The notes under the pieces: model-generated
What the model was told of the DNA's origin: nothing
Databases searched by the model: none
What the model saw: the letters and a program-made list of their open reading frames with translations, nothing else
Virus record (IMG/VR): IMGVR_UViG_3300025300_000055
Coordinates: 1-31,919 of that record
Length of the DNA: 31,919 nucleotides
Strand: one strand, 5' to 3'
Source: a virus
Shown here: in pieces, positions 4,789-29,661 of the stretch
Layout of the letters: the number at the start of each line of letters is the position of its first letter
Position numbering within the stretch: the first letter of the stretch is position 1
Program-made: the position numbers and the translations under genes

Positions 4789-6604
4789 TAAAATAGAAAG
4801 TTTTGAACTGATCAACGACGAAGACGACTTACTCCAATCTATCAAAGCTATGCGGGCTGAAGCTGAAGACGCTATCAGTCAACGTATTAAGGTGGCTCGG
4901 AAATCCTGGCTGTATCTGTTGGGTAGTCAATACCTGATCGAAGAAGGTGAAGCACTGGTCGATGCTGAAGTGCCGAGCTGGAAGTTCAGGTTGACCCGTA
5001 ACATCGTGGCACCGGTGGTGGATACATTAGCCCCCATTCTATCCCAAGCTCGACCTAAATACTTTATTCGAGCTGATTTCCCTGATATGGAAGCTGTTAT
5101 CTCAGATAACGATATAGGGATGCCGATCCCGACGGGGATGACTGATAAAGAGTTAGCTGAGAAGTTGGAGACCATCCTAGATGCTACGCACCAACGACGA
5201 GGTGAAGGTTTAGAGATCAGTAAGCTGTTAATGGATGTGTTGGTCAACGGGACCGGGTTTCGTAAAGTCCATTATTGCCCCTATATGCAAGAGATCAAGC
5301 TACCTATTATCCCGATGGAAGATGTACTGGTCGACCCGATGGGTACTAGATTGGACTTCCAAGACTCCAAGTATGTGATTGTACGGACCTATCTGGATGC
5401 GGCTGACATCGAACACCTGTACGGAGTCAAGGAATCCGATTACGCTGATGGGTCTGATGCCGATCAATCGGCTGATCATAGTGTTAAGAGCGGTCGTGGA
5501 TTCTTGCGACGGGTACGGAACTATTTCAAAGCACCACGCGGAGAACTTACCACTGAAACCCGATATGAGCGTAACAGGTATCCGGTCCTAGAGGTCTATT
5601 TCGACGCTGATCACGGGATTTCGGAAGCGTTTGATTATCGTTACGATGAGGAACGCCAACAAGCTAACCGATCCAGAGTAGTGGTATGTATCAATGAACA
5701 AAAGATAGTCTACGATCAACCCAACCCATATTGGCATAACGAGTTCCCTATTATCGGTTATACCTCATCACCGTTACCTCACGTATTTCACGGCCGATCT
5801 GAAGTAGAACCACTGTTATCGATACAAGACGGGACCAACATTCTCTATAACACTGTTATCGCTAACGCTTTACTGATGTCCAATTCACAATGGTTAATCG
5901 AGGACGGATCAGTCGATTATGGTGACTTAACTAACCAACCCGGTCTGATTGTACCGGTGGAAGATATAGGTAAAGTGCAACGAATCCCACCAGCACCCAT
6001 TCCAGGGGATGTCTTGGGATTAGTCAAAGAGTTGGAACAGACAGCTCAGGAACAGGTGGCCGGTGTCAGTCCTGTTTTACAAGGTCAAGCACCCGGCTCC
6101 AACGTTTCGGGTAAGATGGTCAGTCTCCTGACCGGTAACGCTTACAACCGTCAAGTACCCAAGATCCAGAGTCTGGACGTATCCTATCGTCGCCAAGCTA
6201 GAGTGGAAGTCAGCCTGTTACAACAGTATAAAGAGTTTGATGATCCCAGAGAGACGCGAACTTATGATCAGGGTGAAAACCTGTTATTCAATGAAGCCAT
6301 GCGAGAACTGTTATATAGCGTGGAAATCGAATCTAAGGCCGATGCGCCTTTGAATATGACCGACCGTATCAATTACGCTTTTGCTATGGTCCAATCTGGT
6401 GTCTTTGATGTTAAAGAATTTATCAGATACACCGGTGTCGAACTTTCTGAAGAACGGCGAGCTGAGATCTTTGATGTCATGGATCAGGCTCAAGTTCTTC
6501 AACAACAATTGGCCAACAACCCAGAGTTAGGACTGTCGGCAGACAATAATCCTGCACAACCTGGACTGGCCGAACCCAATGTAGCTAATCAGTTAGGAGT
6601 ATAA
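4781..6604 (+). CDS. Portal protein, P22-like
   Basis: This 607-residue protein fits the portal, the dodecameric ring at the capsid vertex that forms the DNA channel and docks the terminase and the adaptor. Its position directly after TerL, its length and its internal pattern match P22-type portals. It has a helical N-terminus (AEAEDAISQRIKVARKSWLY), a central region with P(L/I)PHVFHGRSEVEPLLSIQD, and a conserved QEQVAGVSPVLQGQ...NVSGKMVSLL segment near residues 420-450 followed by long helices. The C-terminus (from about 560) is Gln/Asn rich and probably flexible. It overlaps terL by 8 bases (ATG inside the TerL end) and leaves 6 bases before the scaffold gene. Confidence 0.88.
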   Translation: MSDKIESFELINDEDDLLQSIKAMRAEAEDAISQRIKVARKSWLYLLGSQYLIEEGEALVDAEVPSWKFRLTRNIVAPVVDTLAPILSQARPKYFIRADFPDMEAVISDNDIGMPIPTGMTDKELAEKLETILDATHQRRGEGLEISKLLMDVLVNGTGFRKVHYCPYMQEIKLPIIPMEDVLVDPMGTRLDFQDSKYVIVRTYLDAADIEHLYGVKESDYADGSDADQSADHSVKSGRGFLRRVRNYFKAPRGELTTETRYERNRYPVLEVYFDADHGISEAFDYRYDEERQQANRSRVVVCINEQKIVYDQPNPYWHNEFPIIGYTSSPLPHVFHGRSEVEPLLSIQDGTNILYNTVIANALLMSNSQWLIEDGSVDYGDLTNQPGLIVPVEDIGKVQRIPPAPIPGDVLGLVKELEQTAQEQVAGVSPVLQGQAPGSNVSGKMVSLLTGNAYNRQVPKIQSLDVSYRRQARVEVSLLQQYKEFDDPRETRTYDQGENLLFNEAMRELLYSVEIESKADAPLNMTDRINYAFAMVQSGVFDVKEFIRYTGVELSEERRAEIFDVMDQAQVLQQQLANNPELGLSADNNPAQPGLAEPNVANQLGV

Positions 6605-6610
6605 GAAGCT

Positions 6611-7282
6611 ATGAACGAGCAGCCCATCGAAACAACTCCCCAAGAGGGAACCACTGTTACCGAGGACTCGTCTGAACCCGTTGACCCGATTGAAGCCGAA
6701 CTCTCGACCCTACGTGAGAAAATGGATAGCGAAAGATTAACAGCTAAACAGAAGATCACCGAAATGGGTCAGGATCGAGCCGATCTAAAAGCCCAGTTGG
6801 AATCCCAACAAGCTGAGATCGATAACTTGAGACGAGGCGGTTACGCGGACAATCAACCCCAAGAAGAAGATGTATATCAGCGGGCAGTGCGGGAAATGGC
6901 GCACGAAATTGTTGACCTAAAAACTCAACAAGCTCAACGCGACGAAGCACAAGCCGTTGATTCCAGAATCACAAAACTGCAACAACAGTTTGGGGTTAGT
7001 GTTGAAGACGCTCAGTTAATTCACGATTACAACATCCAAGGCGATTTTGAAAGCGCTTATAAGGTGGCTAATCTGAACTCGCAGCGTAATCAGAAAAAAC
7101 AGAATCAAGCCCAACAGAGAGCCTCAGCCGGTGAACCATTACCTCAAGCCAGATCCAATACATCGTCACCACCGCAAGTGAGTGAAGGTGATATGGTAGA
7201 AAGGCTAGAGAAGATGAGTCCCACCGAGAGAGCTTCTGCTGTGGCTGCTAATCCGGACCTATTGCAGTATCTCGGGCGATAG
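6611..7282 (+). CDS. Capsid scaffolding protein
   Basis: The 223-residue product sits between portal and coat, the invariant place of the scaffold gene. It has the expected composition: an acidic N-terminal arm (1-30), a long Gln/Glu/Lys-rich coiled coil (about 30-75 and 90-125), then a Gln/Asn-rich basic linker and a short helical C-terminus (VERLEKMSPTERASAVAANP). Scaffold proteins co-assemble with coat subunits in the procapsid and leave before DNA entry. No protease domain is visible, so exit without cleavage, as in P22, is likelier. Identification rests on position and composition rather than on a sequence motif. Confidence 0.75.
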   Translation: MNEQPIETTPQEGTTVTEDSSEPVDPIEAELSTLREKMDSERLTAKQKITEMGQDRADLKAQLESQQAEIDNLRRGGYADNQPQEEDVYQRAVREMAHEIVDLKTQQAQRDEAQAVDSRITKLQQQFGVSVEDAQLIHDYNIQGDFESAYKVANLNSQRNQKKQNQAQQRASAGEPLPQARSNTSSPPQVSEGDMVERLEKMSPTERASAVAANPDLLQYLGR

Positions 7283-7318
7283 GGTCAATAATACCCTACG
7301 CCATTGGGGGATTTTACA

Positions 7319-8572
7319 ATGGCCGCAGTCGGTGGCGCATCAACTACTATTCTCGAACAGATCGAGATGGCAACTTTGCCATCTCAACAGGGGCTGAACA
7401 CAGCTCTACTTTCTAAAACCAGCCCGTTATTACGGGTACTACAAGAGAATGCCAAGGAAGATACTGGCAACTCGATTCGGGCCCAAGTCCGATATAACAG
7501 GAATAAACACCAATGGTACTACGGGTCCGAGCAATTAACAGCTTGGAGAACCGATGCGACCACTGACGCTACTGACGATGTTGGTGGTGCCGGTGCGACT
7601 ACCGGAGCCGGTGGTCAGTTCGCTCAGGTTGAGTATCAATGGAAAAACCTAGCTGTTAATGTTCGTATCACAGAAGATATGTTGGTGGAGAATAGTGCGC
7701 TCAACATCAACGACCTTCTTAACATAGAATCGATCGATTCTATACCGGAGAGAGACCGTAAGACAATCTTCAACATCTTCGCTCGTGAAACCGAGTTGAT
7801 GGCTGATGATATGTCTAATGCTCAAGCCTACGCTTTAGCCAACCAGGAAACTGGTGGGTCTGGTGGTTTGACTAACGGTGGTAACGATCACGACGCAACT
7901 GGAGGTATTCACAGTATCTTTAGTGTGTTGGATAGTAACGATCTGGGCGGGTTCTCTCGTACAGCTTTGGGTACTTTCCAAGATCAAGCCGGAGCTGAAG
8001 ACCTGGGCTTGTTGTCAGGTTACTTTAACACCCATAACACTTCAGGGTCCGATCCAGCCGACTTCACCACTAGTAATAAATGGCAAGCCAAGACCGTCAA
8101 TGTCGAAACGGTTGAGGATGCTGGTGGAGCTCAACATAACCTAACCAAAGAACTGTTAGGGTTGGCTCTACACGATTGCGCTCAGGGTGGTATCGATGCG
8201 GTAGATTACGTTTTCTGTAATCCTCGTATTTATGTAGCCTTGGAAATGTTACTGGAAGGTCAAGTCCAACGTGACGACACCATGTCGAATATTGGGTTCT
8301 TGCAGAACATGACCTGGAACTCCTTCGGCACTACCATTATGGCTGACCCGTTCATTCCGACCGGTTCAGTGATCGGTATTAATACCAACCACACCTATTT
8401 AGTGAACCATGAAGCACTAAACTCCCAGTTTAGTGGGTTCAAAACTCATCCTGATCGAGCGGTGATTGAAGGTCAACTCAAGACCAAATCCCAACTAGTT
8501 TGTGATGACAGAGCCAAAAACTTCTGGATCTATTTAGGTGCTACTCCTCAAGTGGGTGGTACGTCCGTCTAA
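7319..8572 (+). CDS. Major capsid (coat) protein
   Basis: This 417-residue protein is the expected coat subunit by position (scaffold, then coat, then adaptor), length and composition. The start is ATG 7319, preceded by a GGGGGAT ribosome site; an upstream in-frame TTG at 7304 overlaps that site and is unlikely. The N-terminal part (GLNTALLSKTSPLLRVLQEN) is typical of the N-arm of HK97-fold coat proteins. A Gly-rich loop near 85-100 (VGGAGATTGAGG) and another near 185 (TGGSGGLTNGG) look like surface loops. The HK97 fold is inferred from context. A strong hairpin follows the gene, as is common after coat genes, where it tunes downstream expression. Confidence 0.85.
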   Translation: MAAVGGASTTILEQIEMATLPSQQGLNTALLSKTSPLLRVLQENAKEDTGNSIRAQVRYNRNKHQWYYGSEQLTAWRTDATTDATDDVGGAGATTGAGGQFAQVEYQWKNLAVNVRITEDMLVENSALNINDLLNIESIDSIPERDRKTIFNIFARETELMADDMSNAQAYALANQETGGSGGLTNGGNDHDATGGIHSIFSVLDSNDLGGFSRTALGTFQDQAGAEDLGLLSGYFNTHNTSGSDPADFTTSNKWQAKTVNVETVEDAGGAQHNLTKELLGLALHDCAQGGIDAVDYVFCNPRIYVALEMLLEGQVQRDDTMSNIGFLQNMTWNSFGTTIMADPFIPTGSVIGINTNHTYLVNHEALNSQFSGFKTHPDRAVIEGQLKTKSQLVCDDRAKNFWIYLGATPQVGGTSV

Positions 8573-8583
8573 CCTTTACTGAT

Positions 8584-8609
8584 GAGTGGGGTGTTAATTC
8601 GCCTCACTC
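8584..8609 (+). terminator. Hairpin after the coat gene (attenuator or processing site)
   Basis: GAGTGGGGTG (8584-8593) pairs with CGCCTCACTC (8600-8609) over 10 bp, two of them G-U pairs, around a 6-base loop TTAATT. No T-run follows, so this is not a full intrinsic terminator. It may be a partial terminator or an mRNA-stabilising stem that separates high coat expression from the adaptor gene. It lies in the only sizeable intergenic gap of the virion operon. Confidence 0.55.
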
Positions 8610-8627
8610 TCACTATTCTAAAACACA

Positions 8628-9920
8628 ATGGCTTTAACATTAGAAGAACTACGAGACCGGTTAAGATTTAGACTGGGTGACCCTAGTGGTAACTTTATCA
8701 GTAAAGATGTGGTCTATTCCGGTGGTTCGGCCACTGATGAAGAAGCCAAGGTGATCAACGATTCAGCTCGGAAACTAACAGCCGATCTGTATCGGAACGG
8801 TGTTTCGATGTTGACCGGGCGAAAGAAACTGGCCATCGAACCCAATAAACGAGAATACGCCTTACCAGAAGACCTGTTAGGTGTCCAAGAATGCTTCTGG
8901 GAGGATTCAACGACCCGCTACGAGATTAAACAACGTCCGTTGCAATCCTTCAGAGATTTGGACAGTACCGACATCCAGCCCAGATATTTCGATGTTTTTG
9001 GTCAGACAGCCGAGATAATTAACGCTAGAATTTGTAACAATACAAACGATTCCACCACCGTGGCCACTATCGATGTAGCTAGTGCCGGTGATTATCAGGC
9101 CAACTTCGATACCGGTAGCGTGGTCACTGGACGCGATAAGATCTTTAATCTGAGTGACGGTAGCAGTGGGACCATCACCACAACAGCTCTCACATCGATG
9201 ACAGCTTCAGCCGGCTTAACTGGTGGTAAAACCAACACTTTCAGACCAAACGACCGCATACAAATCGAGAGAGCTGAGAAAACCTTGTCTTTGTTCCATA
9301 TAAACCCATTGGTATCCGACTCCAGTTACACCACCATTGCCGACGGTGTTACCACTGCCTTTACACCTACTACTCCCTACTATCTCTATGGGGCTAAGGT
9401 GTCACTATCATCCGTAGGCACAGATACACACCCCTTGAAAGTTTATCTTGAGGATGGGACCAATACGGTAGATGTCACATCTATCGATAGTCGTTCTGTG
9501 GCTACGCATGAAGTGGTGTTTCCTAACAACAAGATCTTGGATACAGACAATACCTACACGCTTTTCGTCGGCGGTTCTCACGATACTGGTAATGTTGTCA
9601 GCAGTTACGACATCTTGGGGTTTAATGGTAACGAACGTCTCAACATCTACTATGCTCGATACCCGATGAAGATGGGAACCTCGACCTATAGTGCTACCCG
9701 TTTGAGTGATCGACTGGAACTTCCAGAGACCTGTTTGGAGGCTCTGATCAATCAAGCTGTCTCGATGGCTAGTTATAAAGCTGAGGGTGGTATTAACAAC
9801 GAATCGGCTCAGGCATTAGCTATGTATGAGATGGAAGTCAATAAGTTGGTCCGATTCCAGAGGACGCGTAACATCAGAGGATCACGTCAGGTCAAGAATG
9901 TGATGTACTCGGCTTACTAG
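8628..9920 (+). CDS. Head-to-tail adaptor protein (gp4-like) with beta-domain insertion
   Basis: This is the probable adaptor ring that binds under the portal and closes the filled head. The N-terminal helix TLEELRDRLRFRLGDP, the following EEAKVINDSARKLTADL, and the C-terminal helical pair (ETCLEALINQAVSMASYKAE...ALAMYEMEVNKLV) together make the all-helical adaptor core seen in phage adaptor families. Between about residues 150 and 340 lies a Thr/Ser/Asp-rich, beta-like segment that interrupts this core. Classical gp4-type adaptors are about 160-220 residues, so at 430 residues this protein is roughly doubled by the insertion. The insert may be a surface-exposed decoration. It ends one base before another ATG and 4 bases before the repeat protein. 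Confidence 0.7.
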   Translation: MALTLEELRDRLRFRLGDPSGNFISKDVVYSGGSATDEEAKVINDSARKLTADLYRNGVSMLTGRKKLAIEPNKREYALPEDLLGVQECFWEDSTTRYEIKQRPLQSFRDLDSTDIQPRYFDVFGQTAEIINARICNNTNDSTTVATIDVASAGDYQANFDTGSVVTGRDKIFNLSDGSSGTITTTALTSMTASAGLTGGKTNTFRPNDRIQIERAEKTLSLFHINPLVSDSSYTTIADGVTTAFTPTTPYYLYGAKVSLSSVGTDTHPLKVYLEDGTNTVDVTSIDSRSVATHEVVFPNNKILDTDNTYTLFVGGSHDTGNVVSSYDILGFNGNERLNIYYARYPMKMGTSTYSATRLSDRLELPETCLEALINQAVSMASYKAEGGINNESAQALAMYEMEVNKLVRFQRTRNIRGSRQVKNVMYSAY

Positions 9921-9924
9921 ATGA

Positions 9925-11097
9925 ATGAAATGGCGACCTGTTCCCACTCCAGATCGGTTTCTGAAAGAGGTTGTACCCCAGACCATTACTCTGACTGCTG
10001 CGGTAGGGGTTTCTGTTGGCCTTGGCGACCACACTCACAGTATAGAGAATCCGGTTACAGCTACCTTCAACCTACCAAAATTGTCGGCATTTATCAATCT
10101 GACCGACCGTTCCGCGGCTCAAGGGGTGGATGTCAGCCGAGTTATCGGTCTCTACAAGATGGTTTCATCCATCGGTTTAGGCGACCATGCTAGCATTGCT
10201 GAGAACGACTTATCCTCCACTATCACACTCTACAAGATGGAGAGCTCCATCGAGTTGGGTGATAATGCGGGGGTGGCTGAGACTAATATTACGGCCGGTG
10301 TTGAACTCTACAAGATGGAGTCGTCTATCGGCTTGGGCGATAATACCCAGGTGGACGAAAACAATGTGGCTAGCACCATCACTCTCTATAAAATGGAGGG
10401 GTCTGTCGGGTTGGGCGACCATAGCCATGTTTATGAAGATAATGTCACTGGGATTATCACACTCTATAAGATGGAGTCGTCAGTCAGGTTGGGCGATCAC
10501 GTCTCGATGGATGAGACCAATTATGCTAACGTTATCACCTTGTATAAGATGGAATCTTCTGTTGGCTTGGGCGATCACAGTGATGTTGATGAAAATAACG
10601 TGGTTAGTATCATCACTTTGTATAAGATGGTGTCTTCCGTCGGTCTGGGTGATCACGCTCAATTGGATGAAAACAATGTTGTTAGGACTATCACCCTGTA
10701 TAAGATGGGAACATCGATGGGGTTGGGCGACCATAGTCAGGTGGATGAAACGGATGTGGCTAACATCACTACCCTGTATAAGATGGAGTCATCGGTCAGC
10801 CTGGGCGATCATAGTCAATTAGATGAGAACGATGTTGCTAATACCACAACTCTCTACAAGATGGAATCTTCGGTCGTATTGGGTGACCATTCTTCGGTCG
10901 ACGAACATAACCAACCTAACGACCGCGTTACCGACGGTGTTTATTTCAAAATTAGTGTTCGTGATAGCGTAGACTCTGAGGAACAAAATAACCCAAGTGA
11001 CAGAGCCTCTAGTAAAGTCGATTTCTACATCCGGGTTGACGACAGCGTTGCAGCCTATAGCCAATCCCAAGGGTCAGGGTCAGGGTCTGGGCCTTAG
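9925..11097 (+). CDS. Virion-region protein built of 26-residue tandem repeats
   Basis: This 390-residue protein consists almost wholly of a 26-residue repeat. Ten close copies cover residues 76-335, each of the form LYKMESSVGLGDHSQVDENN plus a six-residue Thr/Ile/Val tail. Two diverged copies precede them (24-75) and two follow (339-390), ending in a GSGSGSG tail. Key positions are Leu1-Tyr2-Lys3-Met4, Gly11-Asp12 and a Glu near 18. The regular hydrophobic/turn alternation suggests a beta-solenoid or stacked beta-hairpin rod. It lies between the adaptor and the nozzle genes, so a tail or neck component is likely, but no known family was recognised. Codons differ between copies although residues are kept, implying selection on the protein. 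Confidence 0.7.
   Translation: MKWRPVPTPDRFLKEVVPQTITLTAAVGVSVGLGDHTHSIENPVTATFNLPKLSAFINLTDRSAAQGVDVSRVIGLYKMVSSIGLGDHASIAENDLSSTITLYKMESSIELGDNAGVAETNITAGVELYKMESSIGLGDNTQVDENNVASTITLYKMEGSVGLGDHSHVYEDNVTGIITLYKMESSVRLGDHVSMDETNYANVITLYKMESSVGLGDHSDVDENNVVSIITLYKMVSSVGLGDHAQLDENNVVRTITLYKMGTSMGLGDHSQVDETDVANITTLYKMESSVSLGDHSQLDENDVANTTTLYKMESSVVLGDHSSVDEHNQPNDRVTDGVYFKISVRDSVDSEEQNNPSDRASSKVDFYIRVDDSVAAYSQSQGSGSGSGP
10150..10929 (+). repeat. Ten tandem 78-bp units encoding the 26-residue repeat
   Basis: Units begin at 10150, 10228, 10306, 10384, 10462, 10540, 10618, 10696, 10774 and 10852, each opening with a Leu-Tyr-Lys-Met codon block (CTC TAC AAG ATG and synonymous variants). The period is exactly 78 bases with no insertions. 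The DNA copies have diverged mostly at synonymous or surface positions. The repetition also keeps other frames open, which explains long spurious frames on both strands here. Confidence 0.95.
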
Positions 11098-11107
11098 GGG
11101 TGAGGCC

Positions 11108-11851
11108 GTGGTTACAGTTCGTGACCATCGGGGTCGAGTTAAAGGACAGCAGACCATCAACAACAGCCTGACAGATGAGGTCCGGGTTAATTTGATGAAG
11201 AAGATCACAGACGGAGATGCCTACCCTGAGATATTGGTTCCGGTACGAATTATCTGTTTGTTGAGCAATATGTATTGGACTTCAATGGAGATGGTCGGGA
11301 CTAATCACTCTACCAGTGGTGTTGTTAATAATCAGGTCACAACTGAGTTCAGTATCAGTGGGTCAAAACCTCTCGGCACCTTTGACGGTTCGGCTTCAAT
11401 CTCCACTGTTTACCTGTTATCTAATTCGTCCCAAATTGGGTCAGCTACTGGGGATGAGATCGACCCTAATGTGCAGATCGATGATAACGACACCATTGAC
11501 GTGACTTATAAGATAATACTAAGCCGCTCACCGGATGTTAGTGATGATTTAATGGTTCGGTTAGGTGACATCTTACGTGGCGTGGATCAGAATGTAACCA
11601 TCAGTAGGGCCAGCCTGTATAACGGTGCCACTCACTTACAACAAACCGCCTTTACGTTACAGTGGGGTGGAACCAGTAGCTCAGCTAATATCAGATTTAA
11701 CACCATCACCAGTTTACCAGATATAGCCACTTTTTATATCTATGAGGGGTCGGGCATAACGACCAAGGTTTATAGTGAAGCTATCACTGTCGATGGTTGG
11801 GGTAGCGGTGATAATGTGATCGTACCATTTTCAATTAGTTTGACGGCATAA
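11108..11851 (+). CDS. Beta-rich virion protein, paralogue of the next gene
   Basis: Downstream of the repeat protein, this frame encodes 247 residues from GTG 11108, which has a good AGGGG site 7 bases upstream. The frame is open further back, to GTG 10997, giving 284 residues and a 101-base overlap; CTG 11087 would match the paralogue's start best. It is clearly related to the 11863 gene. Shared elements include RGEAVVTV/SGQAEITI at the start, DDNDT followed by a beta strand in the middle, QN(V/I)T(I/M)S, and GDNVIVPFSISLT at the end. The predicted structure is all beta. A role in the tail, perhaps as a ring or spike partner of the repeat protein, is inferred from position. Confidence 0.65.
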   Translation: MVTVRDHRGRVKGQQTINNSLTDEVRVNLMKKITDGDAYPEILVPVRIICLLSNMYWTSMEMVGTNHSTSGVVNNQVTTEFSISGSKPLGTFDGSASISTVYLLSNSSQIGSATGDEIDPNVQIDDNDTIDVTYKIILSRSPDVSDDLMVRLGDILRGVDQNVTISRASLYNGATHLQQTAFTLQWGGTSSSANIRFNTITSLPDIATFYIYEGSGITTKVYSEAITVDGWGSGDNVIVPFSISLTA

Positions 11852-11862
11852 GGAGATTTTCG

Positions 11863-12732
11863 ATGTCAGGATTATCAGGCCAAGCAGAAATCACGATCAC
11901 TAAACCGGATGGTCGACAGATTAAGCAGGTGATTAAGAATAATATAGTAGACAATGTTTATAATGAGTTGAGGGGTCAGATCGTTAGTAGTGGCGATGAT
12001 TATATAAGTGGGGGGCTGATACCGACTCGGATCAAGATTACGCTCAACACTGGGGCCGTTTATTTGGCACCGTCTTCCAATGTTAGCGACGGTGGTATCA
12101 GCCTGGGTACAAATGTTTATGCGGAGTATTCCATACTAACTGCTCCGACGGGGGCTACTTTTGATACTGGCGGAGGTCCGATAGATGGTTACGTTTCGCG
12201 TGTTGACCTGATGGCTGAGAACGGGACCACAATAGTGGCGACGGCTGATACGTCGAACAACACTTTTACTCCCACCAGTACCGGGATCGCCACTGATGAT
12301 GTAATCGATGATAATGACACTGTATCCTGTACCTATCGAATCCAGTTTCAGGGTTACACCGACAGTAGTCAAGAGTATGTGCATCGACTGTTACGGACCA
12401 TTCAAGGTACGGCTCAGAATATTACTATGAGCATCTATCGCTTAACCGATGACGATGGAGATCAGTTGAAAACGGGTGAACTCTCAGTAGCTGGGTTGAC
12501 CACGGATGACGGTACTAACGCTTATACCATTCTGGGCACAGTTATCACAGCAAAAGTGCCAGATACTCCGGTCAACCTGGAGATACTGACATCTGATAGT
12601 ATTCGTATAATGAATAAGGATCTATTAACTGGTCTGGGTAACGATACTGACTTAGAAACCTTTAGTGATGGGGATACAGTAATCGTTCCCTTTGAGTTCA
12701 CCTTGACCCAGTTAATAACGGCAGTCACCTAA
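11863..12732 (+). CDS. Beta-rich virion protein, second paralogue
   Basis: This 289-residue protein has an AAGGAG ribosome site and ATG 11863, so its start is clear. It aligns along its length with the preceding gene: GLSGQAEITITKPDGR at the N-terminus, IPTRIKITLNTG, DDNDTVSCTYRIQFQG, AQNITMS and the terminal DGDTVIVPFEFTLTQ. The two genes therefore arose by tandem duplication and then diverged strongly. The composition is Thr/Asp/Gly rich with regular beta strands and no catalytic motif. Placed directly before the nozzle gene, it probably belongs to the tail hub or to tail-attached spikes. Its family is not recognised. Confidence 0.7.
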   Translation: MSGLSGQAEITITKPDGRQIKQVIKNNIVDNVYNELRGQIVSSGDDYISGGLIPTRIKITLNTGAVYLAPSSNVSDGGISLGTNVYAEYSILTAPTGATFDTGGGPIDGYVSRVDLMAENGTTIVATADTSNNTFTPTSTGIATDDVIDDNDTVSCTYRIQFQGYTDSSQEYVHRLLRTIQGTAQNITMSIYRLTDDDGDQLKTGELSVAGLTTDDGTNAYTILGTVITAKVPDTPVNLEILTSDSIRIMNKDLLTGLGNDTDLETFSDGDTVIVPFEFTLTQLITAVT

Positions 12733-12733
12733 A

Positions 12734-14878
12734 ATGAAGAAGATCTATAAGCTAGACAACTTCAGTCGGGGTATCAACGAGAACTTGAGCGAAGCGGCCG
12801 ACGACATCAAGAACTTTAACGTTCGTATCGATGGGGCTTTGGTTACTCGACCCGGTATCGATTTCGGTGGTAATGGGGGTGATTCCTTAGCCTATTATGG
12901 CAACCCACCAGGAGAGGGGCCGACCGGTACCGGAACCATGACCAATGTGGTTCAGGTTTTCTTTATCCAGGGTCGTCGTTACATCCAAACTACCACCGGG
13001 TTATGGTATAGCGGCATTTCAACCTCCTGGCTAGTCAGTAACCAGACCGGTGACATCACTGACGCTAACTTATGGACCACAGACTATTGGGCTGAGAAAT
13101 ATCATGTAGTGGTAGCTAATCAGGATCGAGCTTTCTTAGCCAACGGTAAATGGCAGTTCTGGATCGATGCCAGGACCAGTGAAAACTATCCCAAAATCTA
13201 CCGCTGGGGGATGGATGCGCCACCCTTCGCGGCCAGTAATATTGAAGTCAACACAGCCGCAACCCAAACCGGTGGAACCATCGAAGCCGGGTTCTATGCT
13301 TATGCTATCTGCTTTCAAAACGCTTTCGGCGGGCTGAGTCCGTTGTCAGATCGGGTGGTAGTGGAACAGGAGAAGGATGGTGAAGACGGACACAAGAATA
13401 AAGCTATCATCACCCTGTTGAACACTGGCACCAACCCCATCCCGACTGATACACAGATAAAATACATCAACCTGTACCGAACGGACAAACAAGCCCCCAT
13501 CCCGGCCGATGCTAGTGAGATAGAAGGAACCTTAGCCCAGAACGCGCCACTGAAACTGATTCGTCAGCACGATATTTCTGTACCTATTGGAGATCCTTCA
13601 ACTTATCCATCCATCAACCATCAAGACACCGACGCTACTCGATCCTATGGGGTTTCGATGTTGTCTAGCACCGAATTTGCCAGTAAACCCCCCTCCAGTC
13701 TGAACCATATCGTGTTATATGCTGGTCGGATATGGGGTAGCATGGTGGAAGATGCCAGCCATTTAGACGAGACAACTACAGCCAGGGCTAATCTACCTGA
13801 TAACGGAGATATGCTGTGTTTCTCAGCTATCGATGAGACAGCGGCTCCATTATACGATATTTGGCCTTTGGTTAAAAGTAAGGACCAGGGTGGTTGGCTG
13901 ACCGATGGTGCAGAATCACCAGCTATTCCTCATCAGATCAAAACACGCGACGTTATCCGAGCTATTGGTCACAGTCGTAACTATATTGCCATCTTCGGCG
14001 ATGCTTCCATTCAGTTAGGTAAAGGTCACGGGATTATTGAGGGTTTATATAATATCAGATTACCTAACACCGACTTAGACTTCTCGGAGTTCATCGATTC
14101 CATCGGTGGTAAAGATAGGTGTGTGGGTGAGATGAATGGTAACCTATATTTCCTGTCTCCGGCTGATACCCGTATCTACCGCTTGGATGTGAATGGTCAA
14201 ATCACTTGGATTTCGGCCCCCATACAAGGAGCTTTGAACGATCACGGTGAATCTAAGATCAAGAATATCGTGGCTGATGATGGTCTGGTTTATGTCTTGA
14301 TTGTGGCCAGTAGTGGCCAGTCAGATCTATATGTTTATGAGGAGTTTCGTAACACCTGGACTCGGTTCGATGTGGGTGATAAGAATCTGTCGAACCTGGC
14401 TGTTAATACCTTAGAGAATACTTATGTCAGCCGTGGGAACAACCATTTCTCCTCTCCATCATCGACCACTTATGCCAGTGGTAGCCCCGCCTTGTATGCA
14501 ATGGGTGAGAAGTCGGGTATCACGGTGTTGTATCGGTTGTTTGATGATGAGGCTGAGACTGACGATAACTCTAGCGTGGCTGTCAGCTACACTTCCGAGG
14601 AGTTTGTCTTCGCCCGACCCACCACAATCGACACTGTTCGAGTGGGTATCGATGGGACTGCGGCTAATGTCTCTCTGAAAATCGATGTCGATGGAGAGTC
14701 TGAATCGGTAGTGATTCCCAATCCAGCTTCGTCGGTTGGTCCTACAGTCTATACTCTATCCAAATCCAACAACTACACTATTCGCCCCTTCGCTCGTGGA
14801 AACAGATTCAAAGTTAAGTTCGAGTTAAGTGGTGTCCAAACAGTAAGATTCTTAGAAATACAGTTTAGGGGGAAATAA
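12734..14878 (+). CDS. Tail nozzle / stabilisation protein (P22 gp10-like by position)
   Basis: The 714-residue product has the features of the large podovirus tail tube (nozzle) proteins that sit below the adaptor and plug the filled head. The N-terminal motif NFSRGINENLSEAADDIKNFNVRIDGALVTRPG is the typical opening of this group (read as NFSRGINEN, then FNVRIDGALVTRPG). The central part has WD/propeller-like repeats with YHVVVANQDRAFLANG, HIVLYAGRIWG and YIAIFGDASIQLGKG. The last 150 residues form a beta sandwich. The length and the gene order adaptor, tail proteins, nozzle, ejection proteins match P22-like phages. The gene starts 1 base after the previous stop, and its TAA overlaps the next ATG. 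Confidence 0.75.
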   Translation: MKKIYKLDNFSRGINENLSEAADDIKNFNVRIDGALVTRPGIDFGGNGGDSLAYYGNPPGEGPTGTGTMTNVVQVFFIQGRRYIQTTTGLWYSGISTSWLVSNQTGDITDANLWTTDYWAEKYHVVVANQDRAFLANGKWQFWIDARTSENYPKIYRWGMDAPPFAASNIEVNTAATQTGGTIEAGFYAYAICFQNAFGGLSPLSDRVVVEQEKDGEDGHKNKAIITLLNTGTNPIPTDTQIKYINLYRTDKQAPIPADASEIEGTLAQNAPLKLIRQHDISVPIGDPSTYPSINHQDTDATRSYGVSMLSSTEFASKPPSSLNHIVLYAGRIWGSMVEDASHLDETTTARANLPDNGDMLCFSAIDETAAPLYDIWPLVKSKDQGGWLTDGAESPAIPHQIKTRDVIRAIGHSRNYIAIFGDASIQLGKGHGIIEGLYNIRLPNTDLDFSEFIDSIGGKDRCVGEMNGNLYFLSPADTRIYRLDVNGQITWISAPIQGALNDHGESKIKNIVADDGLVYVLIVASSGQSDLYVYEEFRNTWTRFDVGDKNLSNLAVNTLENTYVSRGNNHFSSPSSTTYASGSPALYAMGEKSGITVLYRLFDDEAETDDNSSVAVSYTSEEFVFARPTTIDTVRVGIDGTAANVSLKIDVDGESESVVIPNPASSVGPTVYTLSKSNNYTIRPFARGNRFKVKFELSGVQTVRFLEIQFRGK

Positions 14879-15462
14879 TGGCAGATTATTCGGGCGAATA
14901 TAAGAGCAAGAAGAAATGGTGGTCCGATAACCAAGGTAAAGCCTCGTTAGGAGAGATCGTGTCTTTCGGTTTAGCACCTAATAAACCTGATATGGGTGAA
15001 TACGCCTTCAATCGTCGCAAAGCCTTCGAGGATATGGCCGGCCAGTATACCGGTGAAGCTATGCAGGGTGCTAGCGCTATCGGTCAGCTAACTGGTCAGG
15101 GTATGAATCGACGCGGGTTGGGTGACAGTCCGTTAGGGGCTGGAATCACAGCCGGCACACAGAACCAAGCTATCCAACGTGCCATTGGTGAACTCAACCG
15201 GATGAGGTCGCAGATGGAAGGTGAAATCTCCGAGCGGGGATGGCAACAGAAAATGATGGAGTATCAGATGGAGATGCAGATGTTGTCTGATTTCATCGGT
15301 CTATTCAGTACCGCCACTGGGAGTTACCTGGGCTACCAGGGTACTCCTACCGGTCAATTAACCCCACCATCAGGAGCGTTACCATCTCAGGGGGGTGGGG
15401 CACCTCTACCGGCCGGGAGTGACTGGTCAACATGGGCATCACAATCGAGGTATGATAGATAA
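14878..15462 (+). CDS. Small ejection-type virion protein
   Basis: This 194-residue protein has a basic, Trp-rich N-terminus (YKSKKKWWSDNQGK), Ala/Gly/Gln-rich helices (about 40-110), a Met/Glu-rich amphipathic helix (EYQMEMQMLSDFIGLFSTATGSYLG) and a Pro/Gly-rich tail. Composition and place, first of three consecutive genes after the nozzle, fit the smallest of the internal proteins that P22-like phages expel with DNA. The hydrophobic stretch near 135-155 could touch the cell envelope. The start codon shares one base with the preceding stop. Family assignment is by position; no motif is diagnostic. Confidence 0.55.
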   Translation: MADYSGEYKSKKKWWSDNQGKASLGEIVSFGLAPNKPDMGEYAFNRRKAFEDMAGQYTGEAMQGASAIGQLTGQGMNRRGLGDSPLGAGITAGTQNQAIQRAIGELNRMRSQMEGEISERGWQQKMMEYQMEMQMLSDFIGLFSTATGSYLGYQGTPTGQLTPPSGALPSQGGGAPLPAGSDWSTWASQSRYDR

Positions 15463-15463
15463 G

Positions 15464-16792
15464 ATGGCTAATACAGGATTAGTAATCGCTTCCGGGTTGG
15501 CTAAAGCAGTCGACAGTTTCTTCAAAGCTCGAAAGTTACGAGATCTCAACGCTCAAGCCCAGTCTATGGAACAGATCAAGTACCTGAAAGGGTTGGAAGA
15601 CCTGAATAACGCCAGGACACAGGGGGGTATTTTAACTCAGAAGAAGCAGCAGTCGGCGCAAATATTCCCCTATCAATTAACTGAGGCTGAGGGTCTTTCA
15701 TCTATAGCATCCGATGAGGCTAATTTAATGAGCCAACGGGTGGGCCTAACTAAGTTGCCAGAAAAACCGAGGGCGATAGATGAGATGATGCGTCTGAGTG
15801 CCATCCAGGGTCGATCTCTGACAGGTCCAGAGATCCAGGAGATGAGTGGGACACTGGCGGGAACAAAACTACAAACTGAGATAGATCGTGTTGGGGCTAT
15901 GAAGACACAGGCTGAGGAGCGCACCAAATATATCACCCAACAGGTGGCAACGAGTAAGGCTAGTGAAGGACTGATCAATCAGCGAATGGCCAACGTTCAA
16001 TATAAGAATTATGCGCTAACGAAATCGGCTGAGCCTTTAGGTGATCCCGTCTTCGACCAATACTTCCCACTAGCCACCGCTTTAATAGCTGATAAACATG
16101 ACCAGATCGCTGTTTATAAAAACTCTATCAGGGAGGAGTTATCTGACGGTCAAATAAATACAGCACAGGCGATGTTCCGAACAGCTACCAAGGGATCAAT
16201 GTCGGCCACTGGTCGAGACAAAATGCAGCGGATGGAAATCGCGGTGGAATCTACCAGCCGGATTAAAGATGAGTTAGATGAGTATTACCGCTTAGGTGGA
16301 TCGACCGGCATATTTGACGCTATGAAACAGACGTTAAGCGAAGGCGCGGCCTCTCAGGCATTCGAGAAAATAGCTGCTCAACAGATCCCAGCTTTACAGA
16401 GAGTGACATTAAGTATAAAGGATGAGTTTTTCAAGTTTCGACAAGCTGTCTCAGGAGCAGCGTTCTCAGATCAGGAGACTAAAGATTATTACAGTCTGTG
16501 GCCACAAGCCGAGTTGGCTCAATCGGTTAATGAAGGCCGGATCAATAGTATGCTGGAACGAGACAGTTTGAAGGTGGCTTATCAATATATGAGTGCGGCG
16601 GGTGTGCCGGATATTGAAACTGTAGAGAAGCTGATAGGCCAAATCTATCGTTACGATGTCTCTCAGGTGTCGAGGGTTCCTCTCACTCCAGAACAGGTAA
16701 AGGAAATGCAACAAGGGTGGGACAACCCTATAGGTCCGGCTAAAGCGGCTGAGGAACAGGACGCTAAGAGTCGTATTACGGGGGGTAAATAA
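15464..16792 (+). CDS. Helical ejection-type virion protein
   Basis: The 442-residue product begins at ATG 15464, just after the previous stop at 15462, with CGAGG upstream; an ATG at 15452 would add four residues. The protein is almost entirely helical and rich in Gln, Ala, Lys and Glu, with an N-terminal amphipathic segment (ANTGLVIASGLAKAVDSFFKARK) followed by long coiled-coil-like stretches. Such proteins form the trans-envelope DNA channel or internal core in podoviruses. It is the second of three ejection-type genes. Function is inferred from order and composition. Confidence 0.6.
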   Translation: MANTGLVIASGLAKAVDSFFKARKLRDLNAQAQSMEQIKYLKGLEDLNNARTQGGILTQKKQQSAQIFPYQLTEAEGLSSIASDEANLMSQRVGLTKLPEKPRAIDEMMRLSAIQGRSLTGPEIQEMSGTLAGTKLQTEIDRVGAMKTQAEERTKYITQQVATSKASEGLINQRMANVQYKNYALTKSAEPLGDPVFDQYFPLATALIADKHDQIAVYKNSIREELSDGQINTAQAMFRTATKGSMSATGRDKMQRMEIAVESTSRIKDELDEYYRLGGSTGIFDAMKQTLSEGAASQAFEKIAAQQIPALQRVTLSIKDEFFKFRQAVSGAAFSDQETKDYYSLWPQAELAQSVNEGRINSMLERDSLKVAYQYMSAAGVPDIETVEKLIGQIYRYDVSQVSRVPLTPEQVKEMQQGWDNPIGPAKAAEEQDAKSRITGGK

Positions 16793-19700
16793 TGACCAGA
16801 GAACAAGCACTGGAAACATTACGACAACAAAATTACGAACATCTGAATGAAGACGATTTTCAGAGAATCGTAACTGGTGTCTATGGTCCGGCTCCAACCA
16901 GTCCCGGATTGCCGGCCGACCCTCATGCTGGCATACCCATTGTCGAACCACTAGGTGGACCGTTCGGCCCATTATTGGACAAGTTGCGACGGTTCCGAGC
17001 TGAAAACCCAGGTCTTGAAGCCCGAGACCCGGAAGGTGTTCGATCTTTCGTCAACCAACAACCAGAGTTTCAGCAGGCTATGAATGAGATTAACCGTAGT
17101 CGTCGTCAACATTACGCTGACATGGGTGTGGGTGAAGCTGCCGTCAAAGGGGCACCATCGTTACCAGGAAGATTACCGGGTGCAGTTTGGTCCGGTATTC
17201 AAGCCTTTACTCCAGCTACTATCGGCGGACCCAAAGCTGGCGGTGTCTATAAAGTCTTGCGGGAAATAATTAAAGAGTTCCCATCCTATTACGGCTTGAT
17301 GTGGAGAGGAGCCACCGGTGAGGATATTACTGAACAGGAATGGGAACAGATCGCTGAACGGATGCCGACGGCTACAGCGATGGGGAAAGATACTCAAGAC
17401 CTGCTGAGTGAAGGTGGTCTACAGGAACGATTAGTCGAACGACCGGAAGAAGTTCTATCGATGGGGGCTGAGTTACTGGGTCCAATAGCCCGAGTGGGTG
17501 GGATGGGTGCTCGAGCGGCTAAATTGCCCCGATTGGCTAGAGTGGCTGGTATTACGGCCGATGTAGTTGATGCGGTTGATCCCTATGCTGTGGTTCCTAA
17601 TGTGGGTGGGAAGTTCTTAGAGAAATTCGCTAGAGGTGATTTCACTACCCCTTATTCCGACGCTTACAAACCGGAGGTCGACCCTGTTTTACGGAAATAT
17701 TCGGAGGAGTTTGGTGGTAAACCAGGAGAGAAACCGGATACACCCATCGGGCTGGAGACTAGTGCCGAACCAGTGATCAAGCGTGAAGCGGCTGATATTA
17801 TGACTGGATTCAATAAATCAGCTCGAACCCGATGGGATAATTTCACGAAGGGTATCAACAAGCTGGTCGATAAGACGATCAGTATGGCTGGTGGAACCAA
17901 TATCGACACGGCTGATGTGGGTCGTCAAATAGCCATTGGTTTCGATAAACATTACAAGAAATGGAAGGCTGAGTCAGGTGCGGTCCTGGAAGCTGTTAAG
18001 AACCAGATCGGTCACCATCCAGCCAACTATAACCATACTATCGCTAAACTAGACGAGATATTAGAGGAATATTCTGTCGGTGCCATCTCGGAGAACGAGG
18101 TTGATATTCGTCGAGTTCAAACTATGCGCGACAACTTGGCGGCATATATGGGTCAAGCTGAAACTACACCCACGGCGGTATCAGGTCAACCCATAGAGGG
18201 TCAGCCTTACGAGTTTGATTCTGTTCGTAACACAGAACAGGCGCCGAATATGGGAACCCAATACGGTCAAGATATTGAACCGGCTGGTGTTTATATGACC
18301 AAGGGTACACCCCAAAGTATTCAAGGTATGCCCAATTGGGTGTCGAGTCGTGTTCGGTTCGAGAATCCTTTGGTAATCGAATGGGGTGAAGGTTATAGCC
18401 AACCAGGAAACTGGAAAAAAGTGTTGACCCAACGTTTCGACGGTAAAACTGGGGCTGAGTTAAGTGACGCTATTGCGGCTGCTGGGTATGATGGGATTGT
18501 TACGACTCGCCCCTTTCAGGGGGGGATCGAGACTTCAGAGATCGTTGATCTTAGAACAAGAGGCACATCCCCGACGGGTGGTACGGCTCCGGTCGAACCT
18601 CAGAAGCCGTGGAAGAAGTGGACCATGAACGCCCAGCGGAACTTCTTGGAATCCACAGAACCCCATCAGATGACGCGGGAACAGTTCAATTCCTGGAAGC
18701 ATCTAAGTTATAAGAACGAGGTCCGGGCGGATCGGATGTCAAGAGCCTTATCGGCTGACCCTAGTAACGAACTCCCCACCGCTATCAGGAATCATTCTGA
18801 AGATTTCGGATATGAAGAAGGAGGGCCAGGGTTCGTTGAGAAGTTCATTGATATTGAACCAGACGACACAGTTACGATTTATCGGGCCATTTCGTCTGAT
18901 GATCCTTCCGATGGTATTCTTCCTGGTGATTGGGTAGCACTCGAACGTTGGTACGCGGATGAACACGGGGCTGATGGATATGGTGATGTGGGGAGTAAGG
19001 TGGTCGAACTGGAAGTTCGGGCGGCTGATGTTACCTGGGCTGGTACGGATCAAAATGAATGGATATATTCACCCAGAGATTTACGTAGTCAAGAGAGTCT
19101 CGGTGCCCATGAGTCTATGATCAAGCAAGCAATGGAAGAAGGAGAGTCGATACCTCCTGAAGTGATGGCCGAATATCCTCGACTACAACAAGCCCCGTCC
19201 GGTGAGGGTGGTCCGTTATCAGTTGAGGCGTACAAGTATCCGACAGCGGATGCGTTTATTAAAGCACCTTATAAGATCGAAACAATTTTAAGCCAGAAGT
19301 ATTCTGGTGTTACTGTTGATATTTCGGAAAAGAACGGCACCATAACTCTATCAAGGGTTATCGTTCCTGAATCCCAAAGGGGGGAAGGGATCGGCACCAC
19401 CTTGATGGATGACCTGATTGATTATGCTGACAAAACTGGACAGAGAATCGTATTGACACCGACAGGAGATTTTGGAGGAAATGTCAAACGTCTGAAGGAT
19501 TTCTATAAATCATTCGGTTTTGTTGAAAATAAGGGTCAAAGCAAGGATTTCACAACGAGAGAAACGTTTATCAGAGGTCAAGTGTCTGATGATTATGATC
19601 AACGTTTGGCTCAGTTATGGGAAGAATCCCGACAACCAGCGGTTCCCGCCACCACAACCCCCACCACACCTACAACACCGACGGGAGCATACCAGTTAGC

Positions 19701-21159
19701 CGGTGATACTGTTGATGGTTTAACTGTCAGAGGTGAGATCCCTAACACTGACTCTATCGGAGCTACTTTTGACGAGTATGAGGTATTAGATGGTGTCCGA
19801 GAAGTGTCGATGGATGAGTTTGGCGGGCCACAATCTGTATTCTACGCGGCTGATGATTTCAATCGCAGCAAAACTTTGGCTGAGAAAATAGAGCAGAGTG
19901 GAGAGATCAGCCCGCTGATTATTGCTGTAGATAGCGACGGCCCCTATATTTTAGAGGGGGCACATCGGTATGTTGCATTACATAATATGGGTAAAAAGTC
20001 TTTCCCGGCCATAATTGTTAAAGACCTGGACTCAGTGGACACAGCCCCCACTACACCTACAACCCCAACAGGCACTCTAACCATATCGGATCTGGATAAA
20101 GAACGATCCAGTTTCCGTCGTCAGCAAAAAGAAATCTATACCGGAGATGTGGCTGAGGTCCAGATACCTCTCAATAAAGCTTGGGGCATGCAGATCTATG
20201 ATGCTATGACTGATGATATGTATGAGGCGGCTATGGCGGCTTCACCTGAAGACGCGGCTAAATTACGTCAGGGTAAGTTGGAATATTACAAAGGAACTCA
20301 GAAGTTTAACAGTATTTGGGGTAAACGGATCAAAGCACTGGTGGAAGGGACATCGAAACGGGCAGGCGGTCGATACAAAGAACTGGTAGAGAAATATATC
20401 CTCAACCCCAGTGGTAGCGGGTTTTTCAACGAGGTGGACATGCCAGCCATACTAGCCACCGTAGGTGAAGACGCGCAACAGGCTATCAAGGGTGAATTGT
20501 TGGTTCAGATCTTCGAGAGGGCTCAACCTGGAAGGGGTCGAGAGATAGGGATATTAGCCACTTCTGAAGGTGACCTGACAGCTAGCGCCTTGAGAAGATC
20601 AGTCAGCAAGGTTGACCGTAAGGTGATGACTGATGTTTTAGGTGACGATATTGTGGAGCTGATGGATGATTTACAGATGTTGCTCAACAGTTCCGGTGGT
20701 TTAAGAAGCACTATAGGTGGGTCTCAAACAGCTTACAACCAACACGCTATAAATCAGATTGCTAAGATGGCGGCGCTACTACGGTTTGGAATTGGGGCGG
20801 CTGCTGGTCAATCTGGGAGTTATCTATTCGGTGACTTACCCGGACCGGAGTGGGTAGCTGGAGCCATCATAGGGTTAGTAGGTCAACCGGTTTATGATGC
20901 TTTTCGTCAATCCAAGTTCTCCAAGAGATGGCAACTACAAGGTTACACCTTCCCAGAAACGATCCAGAAAACTGGTCGGATCATGTCAGGGGTTTCACCG
21001 GCCGCGGGATTCGTGGCCAGGGTATCGACACAACCTGAAGTCCAGCAAAGGAAACGGAGCCGAGCGATGGATGTTCTACTGGGTCTCCCATACTCATCAC
21101 CGGAGGAGGGTCAGAGAGCGATGGATAAATTACTGTTGAGAAATCAGCCTAGAGACTAA
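16792..21159 (+). CDS. Giant ejected polyvalent protein: two ART-like domains, GNAT and ParB/Srx-like domain
   Basis: A 1455-residue protein in the place of the largest P22-type ejection protein. A helical body (1-460 and about 1095-1455), with a hydrophobic, possibly membrane-active stretch near 1325-1370, is interrupted by an enzyme cassette. Residues 470-590 resemble phage polyvalent ADP-ribosyltransferase domains (DIEPAGVYMT, FENPLVIEWG, AAGYDGIV, SEIVDL). Residues 660-765 look like a second, R-S-E type ART (TIYRAIS, PGDWVALERWYADEHG, NEWIYSP). Residues 825-925 are a GNAT acetyltransferase with the acetyl-CoA loop RGEGIG (863-868). Residues 967-1080 resemble the ParB/sulfiredoxin fold with LEGAHR (1054-1059). 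TP-rich linkers at about 952-965 and 1084-1094 bound the last module. The likely role is delivery into the cell with the DNA, then modification of host proteins. Confidence 0.8.
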   Translation: MTREQALETLRQQNYEHLNEDDFQRIVTGVYGPAPTSPGLPADPHAGIPIVEPLGGPFGPLLDKLRRFRAENPGLEARDPEGVRSFVNQQPEFQQAMNEINRSRRQHYADMGVGEAAVKGAPSLPGRLPGAVWSGIQAFTPATIGGPKAGGVYKVLREIIKEFPSYYGLMWRGATGEDITEQEWEQIAERMPTATAMGKDTQDLLSEGGLQERLVERPEEVLSMGAELLGPIARVGGMGARAAKLPRLARVAGITADVVDAVDPYAVVPNVGGKFLEKFARGDFTTPYSDAYKPEVDPVLRKYSEEFGGKPGEKPDTPIGLETSAEPVIKREAADIMTGFNKSARTRWDNFTKGINKLVDKTISMAGGTNIDTADVGRQIAIGFDKHYKKWKAESGAVLEAVKNQIGHHPANYNHTIAKLDEILEEYSVGAISENEVDIRRVQTMRDNLAAYMGQAETTPTAVSGQPIEGQPYEFDSVRNTEQAPNMGTQYGQDIEPAGVYMTKGTPQSIQGMPNWVSSRVRFENPLVIEWGEGYSQPGNWKKVLTQRFDGKTGAELSDAIAAAGYDGIVTTRPFQGGIETSEIVDLRTRGTSPTGGTAPVEPQKPWKKWTMNAQRNFLESTEPHQMTREQFNSWKHLSYKNEVRADRMSRALSADPSNELPTAIRNHSEDFGYEEGGPGFVEKFIDIEPDDTVTIYRAISSDDPSDGILPGDWVALERWYADEHGADGYGDVGSKVVELEVRAADVTWAGTDQNEWIYSPRDLRSQESLGAHESMIKQAMEEGESIPPEVMAEYPRLQQAPSGEGGPLSVEAYKYPTADAFIKAPYKIETILSQKYSGVTVDISEKNGTITLSRVIVPESQRGEGIGTTLMDDLIDYADKTGQRIVLTPTGDFGGNVKRLKDFYKSFGFVENKGQSKDFTTRETFIRGQVSDDYDQRLAQLWEESRQPAVPATTTPTTPTTPTGAYQLAGDTVDGLTVRGEIPNTDSIGATFDEYEVLDGVREVSMDEFGGPQSVFYAADDFNRSKTLAEKIEQSGEISPLIIAVDSDGPYILEGAHRYVALHNMGKKSFPAIIVKDLDSVDTAPTTPTTPTGTLTISDLDKERSSFRRQQKEIYTGDVAEVQIPLNKAWGMQIYDAMTDDMYEAAMAASPEDAAKLRQGKLEYYKGTQKFNSIWGKRIKALVEGTSKRAGGRYKELVEKYILNPSGSGFFNEVDMPAILATVGEDAQQAIKGELLVQIFERAQPGRGREIGILATSEGDLTASALRRSVSKVDRKVMTDVLGDDIVELMDDLQMLLNSSGGLRSTIGGSQTAYNQHAINQIAKMAALLRFGIGAAAGQSGSYLFGDLPGPEWVAGAIIGLVGQPVYDAFRQSKFSKRWQLQGYTFPETIQKTGRIMSGVSPAAGFVARVSTQPEVQQRKRSRAMDVLLGLPYSSPEEGQRAMDKLLLRNQPRD

Positions 21160-29410: not shown

Positions 29411-29631
29411 TTTCACACTTATTTCACATTTAATTCCTATTTATTTCACACACCTCAAACCTATGCCACCATTGGGTTTAAGGGGGTTTTTGATTTATTT
29501 CACAGGCCCCCTAATATAACCCTAACGTGAATAGACCATATAAGGGACTATATATATTAAATGAAATATATATATTTACTATACGGGGCTTGGGTTTGCG
29601 ATGGTGAAATAAATGTGAAACAAATGTGAAA
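29411..29631. other. Iteron-rich AT-rich region: candidate replication origin or operator
   Basis: TTTCACA occurs at 29411-29417, 29422-29428, 29444-29450 and 29498-29504. The complement TGTGAAA occurs at 29614-29620 and 29625-29631, with a near copy GGTGAAA at 29603-29609. The two clusters face each other across an A/T block holding the perfect inverted repeat TATATATATT/AATATATATA (29549-29558, 29565-29574). Oriented iterons plus an easily melted core, placed right after a primase-helicase gene, are the hallmark of a phage or plasmid origin. It is also the only sizeable gap (29395-29661) in the replication part. Confidence 0.65.
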
Positions 29632-29661
29632 TAAAGAGAAATAAATAAGGAGACTATTATT

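Follow-up and report, generated by a model that had tools for sequence, protein, structure and literature searches.

The open reading frame (ORF) at 16792-21159 of virus contig IMGVR_UViG_3300025300_000055 encodes what is, by homology, a P22 gp16-type ejection protein, in which about 640 residues are inserted at a single point of the body. The insert consists of linker-bounded modules, assigned to an ADP-ribosyltransferase (ART) fold, a second, ART-like module, a GNAT acetyltransferase and a ParB-type domain, and the loop that holds them looks like an exchangeable slot, with modules exchanged between close relatives. We infer that this is a gp16-type protein with a swappable payload slot whose enzymes would enter the host together with the ejection proteins, a reading of delivery and activity to which we give a probability of about 0.68. 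The window analyzed here is the full 31,919-base contig, taken as one strand; the segments of the gene and the two ejection-type genes before it described below lie on the plus strand, and residue numbers refer to the protein of 1455 amino acids (aa), whose frame begins with ATG and contains no internal stop.

The C-terminal body (residues 1096-1455; 20077..21159) matched phrog_770 in the window protein (E 1.6e-6) and in its relatives L003 (IMGVR_UViG_2788500251_000036; E 9.6e-7) and L028 (IMGVR_UViG_3300009104_000069; E 1.3e-8, profile 375-619 of 668). P22 gp16 itself (609 aa) matches this family with an E value of 2e-266, which bears out the P22-gp16-like place that a first-pass annotation of this DNA had proposed. 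A gp16 hidden Markov model (HMM) was built from 11 uninterrupted gp16 proteins of 609-738 aa (P22, APSE-1, UPF_BP1, BTP1, ST64T, Gally, Vibrio D273, 1.036 and PVA1, Proteus V3, and Bas95) and run over the unmodified large proteins. In the window protein, residues 385-450 aligned with nodes 353-418 and residues 1094-1184 with nodes 420-503 (19.5 bits). Residues 387-452 and 1063-1153 of L003 fell on the same nodes, and in L028 residues 387-455 and 965-1200 corresponded to nodes 351-419 and 423-633. The two segments abut in profile coordinates in all three proteins, which are mutually homologous and so do not amount to three independent tests. This abutment places the insert of about 640 residues in one loop of the gp16-type body.

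Homology on the N-terminal side was fainter. The last segment before the insert in which gp16 homology could be detected, residues 385-450 (17944..18141), scored 9-11 bits with the 11-protein HMM, and the N-terminal flank alone gave 11.3 bits in the window protein, 11.4 bits in L003 and 6.4 bits in L028. Controls stayed far below the first two values, with at most 3.0 bits in 1000 shuffles and at most 3.6 bits in 217 unrelated ORFs. Both flanks are thus homologous to uninterrupted P22 gp16, in agreement with the earlier proposal of one interrupted body, and the ends of the gp16 homology, which stops at 450 and restarts at 1094, independently agree with the cassette limits of 465-1095 suggested before. 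The N-terminal body as a whole (residues 1-455; 16792..18156) is 51% identical in L028 and 84% identical in L003. The insertion point corresponds to about residue 339 of P22 gp16, where ordinary gp16 proteins have a short loop of variable length; a sequence search of the PDB found no gp16 structure.

Comparison of relatives revealed that the same position carries different modules. Over 2720 to 16672 of the window, its DNA and that of L003 (as L009) share 94% identity, and the two body parts of L003 are 84% and 91% identical in amino acids to those of the window protein (synonymous divergence, dS, 0.34 and 0.24), as is module 1 at 83%. In window 18570-20040, however, no DNA similarity to L003 was found beyond matches of 25-35 nucleotides (nt) at linkers: L003 retains module 1, followed by two other modules of about 220 aa each that are unrelated to modules 2-4. 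Profile searches recognized no family for these two modules, and their classification as ART-like on the motifs YYHQT, LYHAS and LGYDAGF was rejected, with no profile in support. L028, which comes from another sample and has the same gene order, is more distant in the body (51-53% identity), and its slot holds ART1, ART2 and GNAT in the order found in the window, at 61% identity. It lacks ParB, and the proline-rich linker runs directly into the body. The window protein is therefore nearer to L003 in its body and nearer to L028 in its modules. A relative with a continuous helical domain at this place, which would have spoken against an insertion, was not present among those examined, nor did structure prediction show that ART, GNAT and ParB folds are lacking.

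Single-module matches aside, searches of 50,697 phage records and of GTDB species genomes gave no relative of the body, and scans of IMG/VR with peptide patterns returned only three contigs with a related body, one of which, L002, is nearly identical to the window. With the linker as DNA bait, the known contigs and three others were recovered, of which the one inspected was an unrelated frame. A further contig, L010, has the gene order of the window and stops 103 aa into the gene, with an N-terminal end that could not be aligned.

Horizontal movement of the GNAT module between two lineages was evident from divergence at synonymous sites. Between the window and L028, the synonymous difference (ps) was 0.80-0.82 for the body, 0.76-0.81 for neighboring genes, 0.77 for ART1 and 0.73 for ART2, versus 0.35 for GNAT. 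The GNAT modules are 90% identical in amino acids with a dS of 0.46, whereas the body and the neighboring genes are saturated at synonymous sites and ART1 and ART2 almost so; GNAT therefore moved between the lineages. Likewise, the codons of identical residues were themselves identical in 101 of 132 cases within GNAT and in 233 of 599 outside it (p 2e-15 by Fisher's test). The G+C content of GNAT is 0.42 in both the window and L028, and that of the bodies is 0.49-0.52. Nonsynonymous divergence (dN) was 0.20 for ART1, 0.16 for ART2 and 0.05 for GNAT, versus 0.39-0.46 for the body.

The edges of modules coincide with linkers shared between relatives, in part at the DNA level. The linker QQAPSGEG (19186..19209) marks a module boundary, and its 24 nt differ by one mismatch from L003:9807-9830; the left edge of GNAT lies near this linker, QQ[A/N]PSGEG, which precedes a different module in L003. 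ParB is bounded on the left by TPTTPTTPTG (19657..19686), a near-identical in-frame direct repeat of 20047-20073, where PTTPTTPTG forms the right edge of both ParB and the slot. The same linker ends the slot of L003 (11154-11183), whose last module is flanked on both sides by the same kind of linker as ParB in the window. The simplest account, we infer, is in-frame swapping of modules by recombination within short shared linkers.

The four modules proposed by the first-pass annotation fared differently, with ART1 favored by a structural model, GNAT by profiles and ParB by weak but concordant matches, and the second ART by motif and family only. Module 1 (residues 466-592; 18187..18567) was modeled by AlphaFold2 at moderate confidence, with a predicted local distance difference test score (pLDDT) of 64 and a predicted template modeling score (pTM) of 0.58. 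Chains of the ART superfamily (NatT, MbcT, ParT, diphtheria-type and PARP) made up 38 of the 39 VIA matches listed, the best with Z 4.8 and all with Z below 5. Plain Foldseek against the PDB gave no significant match for this model, and the pointers to ART came only from VIA and from a viral library, the latter through polyvalent proteins and PolyVal ADP-ribosyltransferase entries. R479, Y501 and E583 are invariant in five sequences, including those of MW202647 and Skog, and map to the first, the second and the final strand of the model. Together these observations suggest, with moderate confidence, an ART fold. Placement in the HYD2 clade of polyvalent ARTs was rejected because R, Y and E occupy the active-site places at which HYD2 has H, Y and D. 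Homologs of module 1 occur in podovirus ctMEh928, at the C-terminal end of an unrelated late-region protein of 960 aa (UOF79907.1; L016:3490-6372), and in Gordonia phage Skog, within a small protein encoded close to genes for tail proteins and a glycosylase (L017:3710-4318).

Module 1 is followed by a connector (residues 603-650; 18598..18741) that looks helical and that, in the alignment, is common to L028 and absent from L003. Module 2 (residues 676-775; 18817..19116) matched phrog_2579 (E 1.3e-11) and is 76% identical in L028. Its conserved YR (697-698), GDWV (712-715) and E756 align with Vibrio phage 1.185.O and mycobacteriophage Phaux, which makes it a candidate ART by motif and phage family. 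Profile searches of the PDB with the ART1 and ART2 alignments returned chance matches only, and AlphaFold2 prediction of residues 456-1099 as one piece, from a three-row alignment, reached a pLDDT of 34.

Module 3 (residues 807-950; 19210..19641) was recognized as a GNAT acetyltransferase by Pfam (E 2.8e-6 to 2.2e-4; Acetyltransf_1 at 23.1 bits versus a cut-off of 20.7) and by PHROGs (phrog_10691, E 3e-25). Its acetyl-CoA motif R/QxxGxG/A is intact, as RGEGIG at 863-868, and giant phage proteins annotated as PLxRFG or DarB-like contain GNAT segments that share 41-46% identity with this module. Module 4 (residues 966-1085; 19687..20046), which has the motif EGAHRY, is absent from L028 and replaced in L003. 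ParB_N matched it at the same position in four libraries, with E values of 0.015 in Pfam (sub-threshold, 15.8 versus 26.3 bits), 0.003 in PHROGs, 0.001 for PDB 7o0n and 0.0017 in NCBIfam. The substrates of ParB-type domains are nucleotides or DNA and not proteins; for this reason the several "protein-modifying activities" that had been attributed to the cassette were too broadly worded.

The behavior of P22 provides a model of how such a cassette might be delivered. Once a P22 virion has adsorbed, gp7, gp16 and gp20 exit it ahead of the DNA and build a conduit, and gp16 is thought to sit or act at the inner membrane (PMC10883804; PMC8954989); one account puts the gp16 injected at about 12 copies per virion (PMC8402733). 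By analogy, the window protein would be packaged, ejected ahead of the DNA and placed at the inner membrane. Carried along in that one chain, its modules would regain their folds in the cytoplasm, which offers NAD+, acetyl-CoA and nucleotides; as ART and GNAT need NAD+ and acetyl-CoA, this is where they would be expected to act. Within minutes of the start of infection, and before phage gene expression, they might alter proteins of the host or have nucleotides or DNA as substrates, most likely to counter host defense or to redirect host machinery. Different host targets would account for the different module sets, and recombination in shared linkers would change the modules in frame while leaving the ejection body undisturbed. 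A broader proposal is that the gp16 loop is a dedicated, general effector loading site, such that any module between the linkers would be carried to the cytoplasm and sets would be changed by linker recombination, like polymorphic toxin tips. This is tentative, and we put it somewhat short of even odds.

The site at which the modules act is not evident from the sequence, and the gene lies among late genes. The modules might thus work within the virion or in the cell that produces it, in assembly, maturation or exclusion of other phages, and not in the newly infected cell; some polyvalent proteins are indeed thought to be processed before packaging (PMC5512222). We consider this unlikely, as the body family leaves the virion before the DNA in P22 (PMC10883804), and as release from the body before packaging would be without an evident agent: a Pfam search of the 1455 aa detected no peptidase, metallopeptidases included, and no LPD domain. 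Slightly less probable again is a reading in which decayed or solely structural domains make up a mosaic cassette that a permissive loop tolerates and that has no enzymatic role. Such a mosaic would fit the length variation of this loop in ordinary gp16 proteins, the two L003 modules without recognized family, and the place of gp16 and gp20 among the most variable, mosaic parts of P22-like virion genes (PMC10883804). However, GNAT has kept its acetyl-CoA motif, and ART1 has kept R, Y and E on the expected strands in five sequences, including those of distant phages. The dN values of ART1, ART2 and GNAT, being below those of the body, also argue for constraint, although recent transfer contributes to that of GNAT. 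An artefact of metagenome assembly, in which unrelated reads were joined at low-complexity linkers, had to be considered because the contigs are records of uncultivated viruses and the linkers are repetitive. This possibility is largely refuted. L002 agrees with the window at 99.99% identity over 15 kb, including the whole of the ORF at 16792-21159; L028 has the ART1-ART2-GNAT order although it is from another sample; and the frames are open over 1331-1455 codons in all. A chimera was rejected on the evidence of L002 and L028.

Several points weigh against a swappable payload slot with delivered enzymes. The match of the N-terminal flank to gp16 is short (66 residues), and the related genomes are three, from two lineages only. 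Among the modules, the ART1 model is of moderate confidence with low Z values, the ART fold of module 2 is unproven, and, taken library by library, the ParB match is weak. Finally, ejection takes the chain through the tail channel, probably in unfolded form, and could be hindered by the additional 640 or so residues in each copy.

The genomic setting resembles that of P22. Terminase, portal and a podoviral coat gene, all upstream on the same strand, are followed by a 714-aa gene and three ejection-type genes, which match P22 gp7, gp20 and gp16 in order and sizes. Of the three, the ORF at 16792-21159 comes last and is the longest, and it lies downstream of the head-closure genes. A small protein (14878..15462) occupies the gp7 position and a second ejection-type protein (15395..16792) the gp20 position, both by placement and size only; sequence searches detected no homology of the former to P22 gp7 or of the latter to P22 gp20. 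Directly behind the ejection genes of L003, a 461-aa hybrid sensor histidine kinase/response regulator is encoded (L003:12651-14036; NCBIfam TorS model, E 5e-105). Such a kinase is unusual for a phage late region, and the window has only short ORFs at this site. Elsewhere in the window, a 390-aa protein between coat and tail genes (9925-11097), conserved in L003, consists mostly of about nine 26-residue repeats (ITLYKMESSVGLGDHSQVDENNVAS-like, with a period of 78 nt). In the gap after the primase gene, an 11-nt unit, GTGAAATAAAT, is present in four tandem copies (29604-29646), perhaps as a site for replication or regulation.

Phages and conjugative elements are already known to encode polyvalent proteins with ART, GNAT and ParB-type domains, and the injection of these proteins has been predicted; one phage GNAT family typically adjoins an ART (Iyer et al. 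2017; PMC5512222). A term search of the main text of that study found mention of neither P22 nor ejection proteins (PMC5512222). Mosaicism and domain swapping, including of a peptidoglycan hydrolase domain, have been described for ejection proteins (PMC8954989). No account of an exchange slot or polyvalent cassette in ejection or gp16-type proteins was found in the literature searched, with subscription journals mostly outside the search, in line with the earlier view that this module set in a P22-gp16-like place is not a standard description. New here are the insertion into a gp16 body at one point, the variation of module sets among close relatives and evidence that a single module moved horizontally. 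The findings connect polyvalent proteins, for which injection is mostly predicted, with podoviral ejection proteins, for which ejection has been measured, two groups so far treated apart. As the gp16 body is a credible vehicle, the predicted entry of polyvalent enzymes with the DNA becomes testable in P22-like laboratory systems. The slot may also offer phages a route to alter their first-minute effector set with the ejection machine unchanged.

The window protein combines at least two disparate domains in one polypeptide and is encoded among late virion genes; like polyvalent proteins (PMC5512222), it gathers several disparate enzymatic domains in one large late protein. It differs from them in that these domains occupy one loop of a gp16-type body and are exchanged at defined linkers in relatives. 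AUR93205.1 of Vibrio phage 1.185.O (L019:14469-22013) holds the same place in the gene order, and its GNAT and ART2-like modules belong to the families found here, but it is 2514 aa long, has no gp16 match, shows the reverse GNAT/ART2-like order and carries LPD22. Phage T4 Alt is an ADP-ribosyltransferase known to be packaged and injected (PMC5512222), although its ART is of another clade and does not lie inside an ejection protein. T7 gp16 is an ejection protein with an added enzyme domain, an N-terminal transglycosylase (PMC8954989); that enzyme opens peptidoglycan for passage, and the protein has no multienzyme cassette with cytoplasmic cofactors. P22 gp16 is homologous to the body on both sides of the insert and is likewise the product of the last gene in a 7-20-16-like order of three. 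The loop that is short and differs in length among P22 gp16 and ten relatives of 609-738 aa is occupied in the window protein by about 640 residues.

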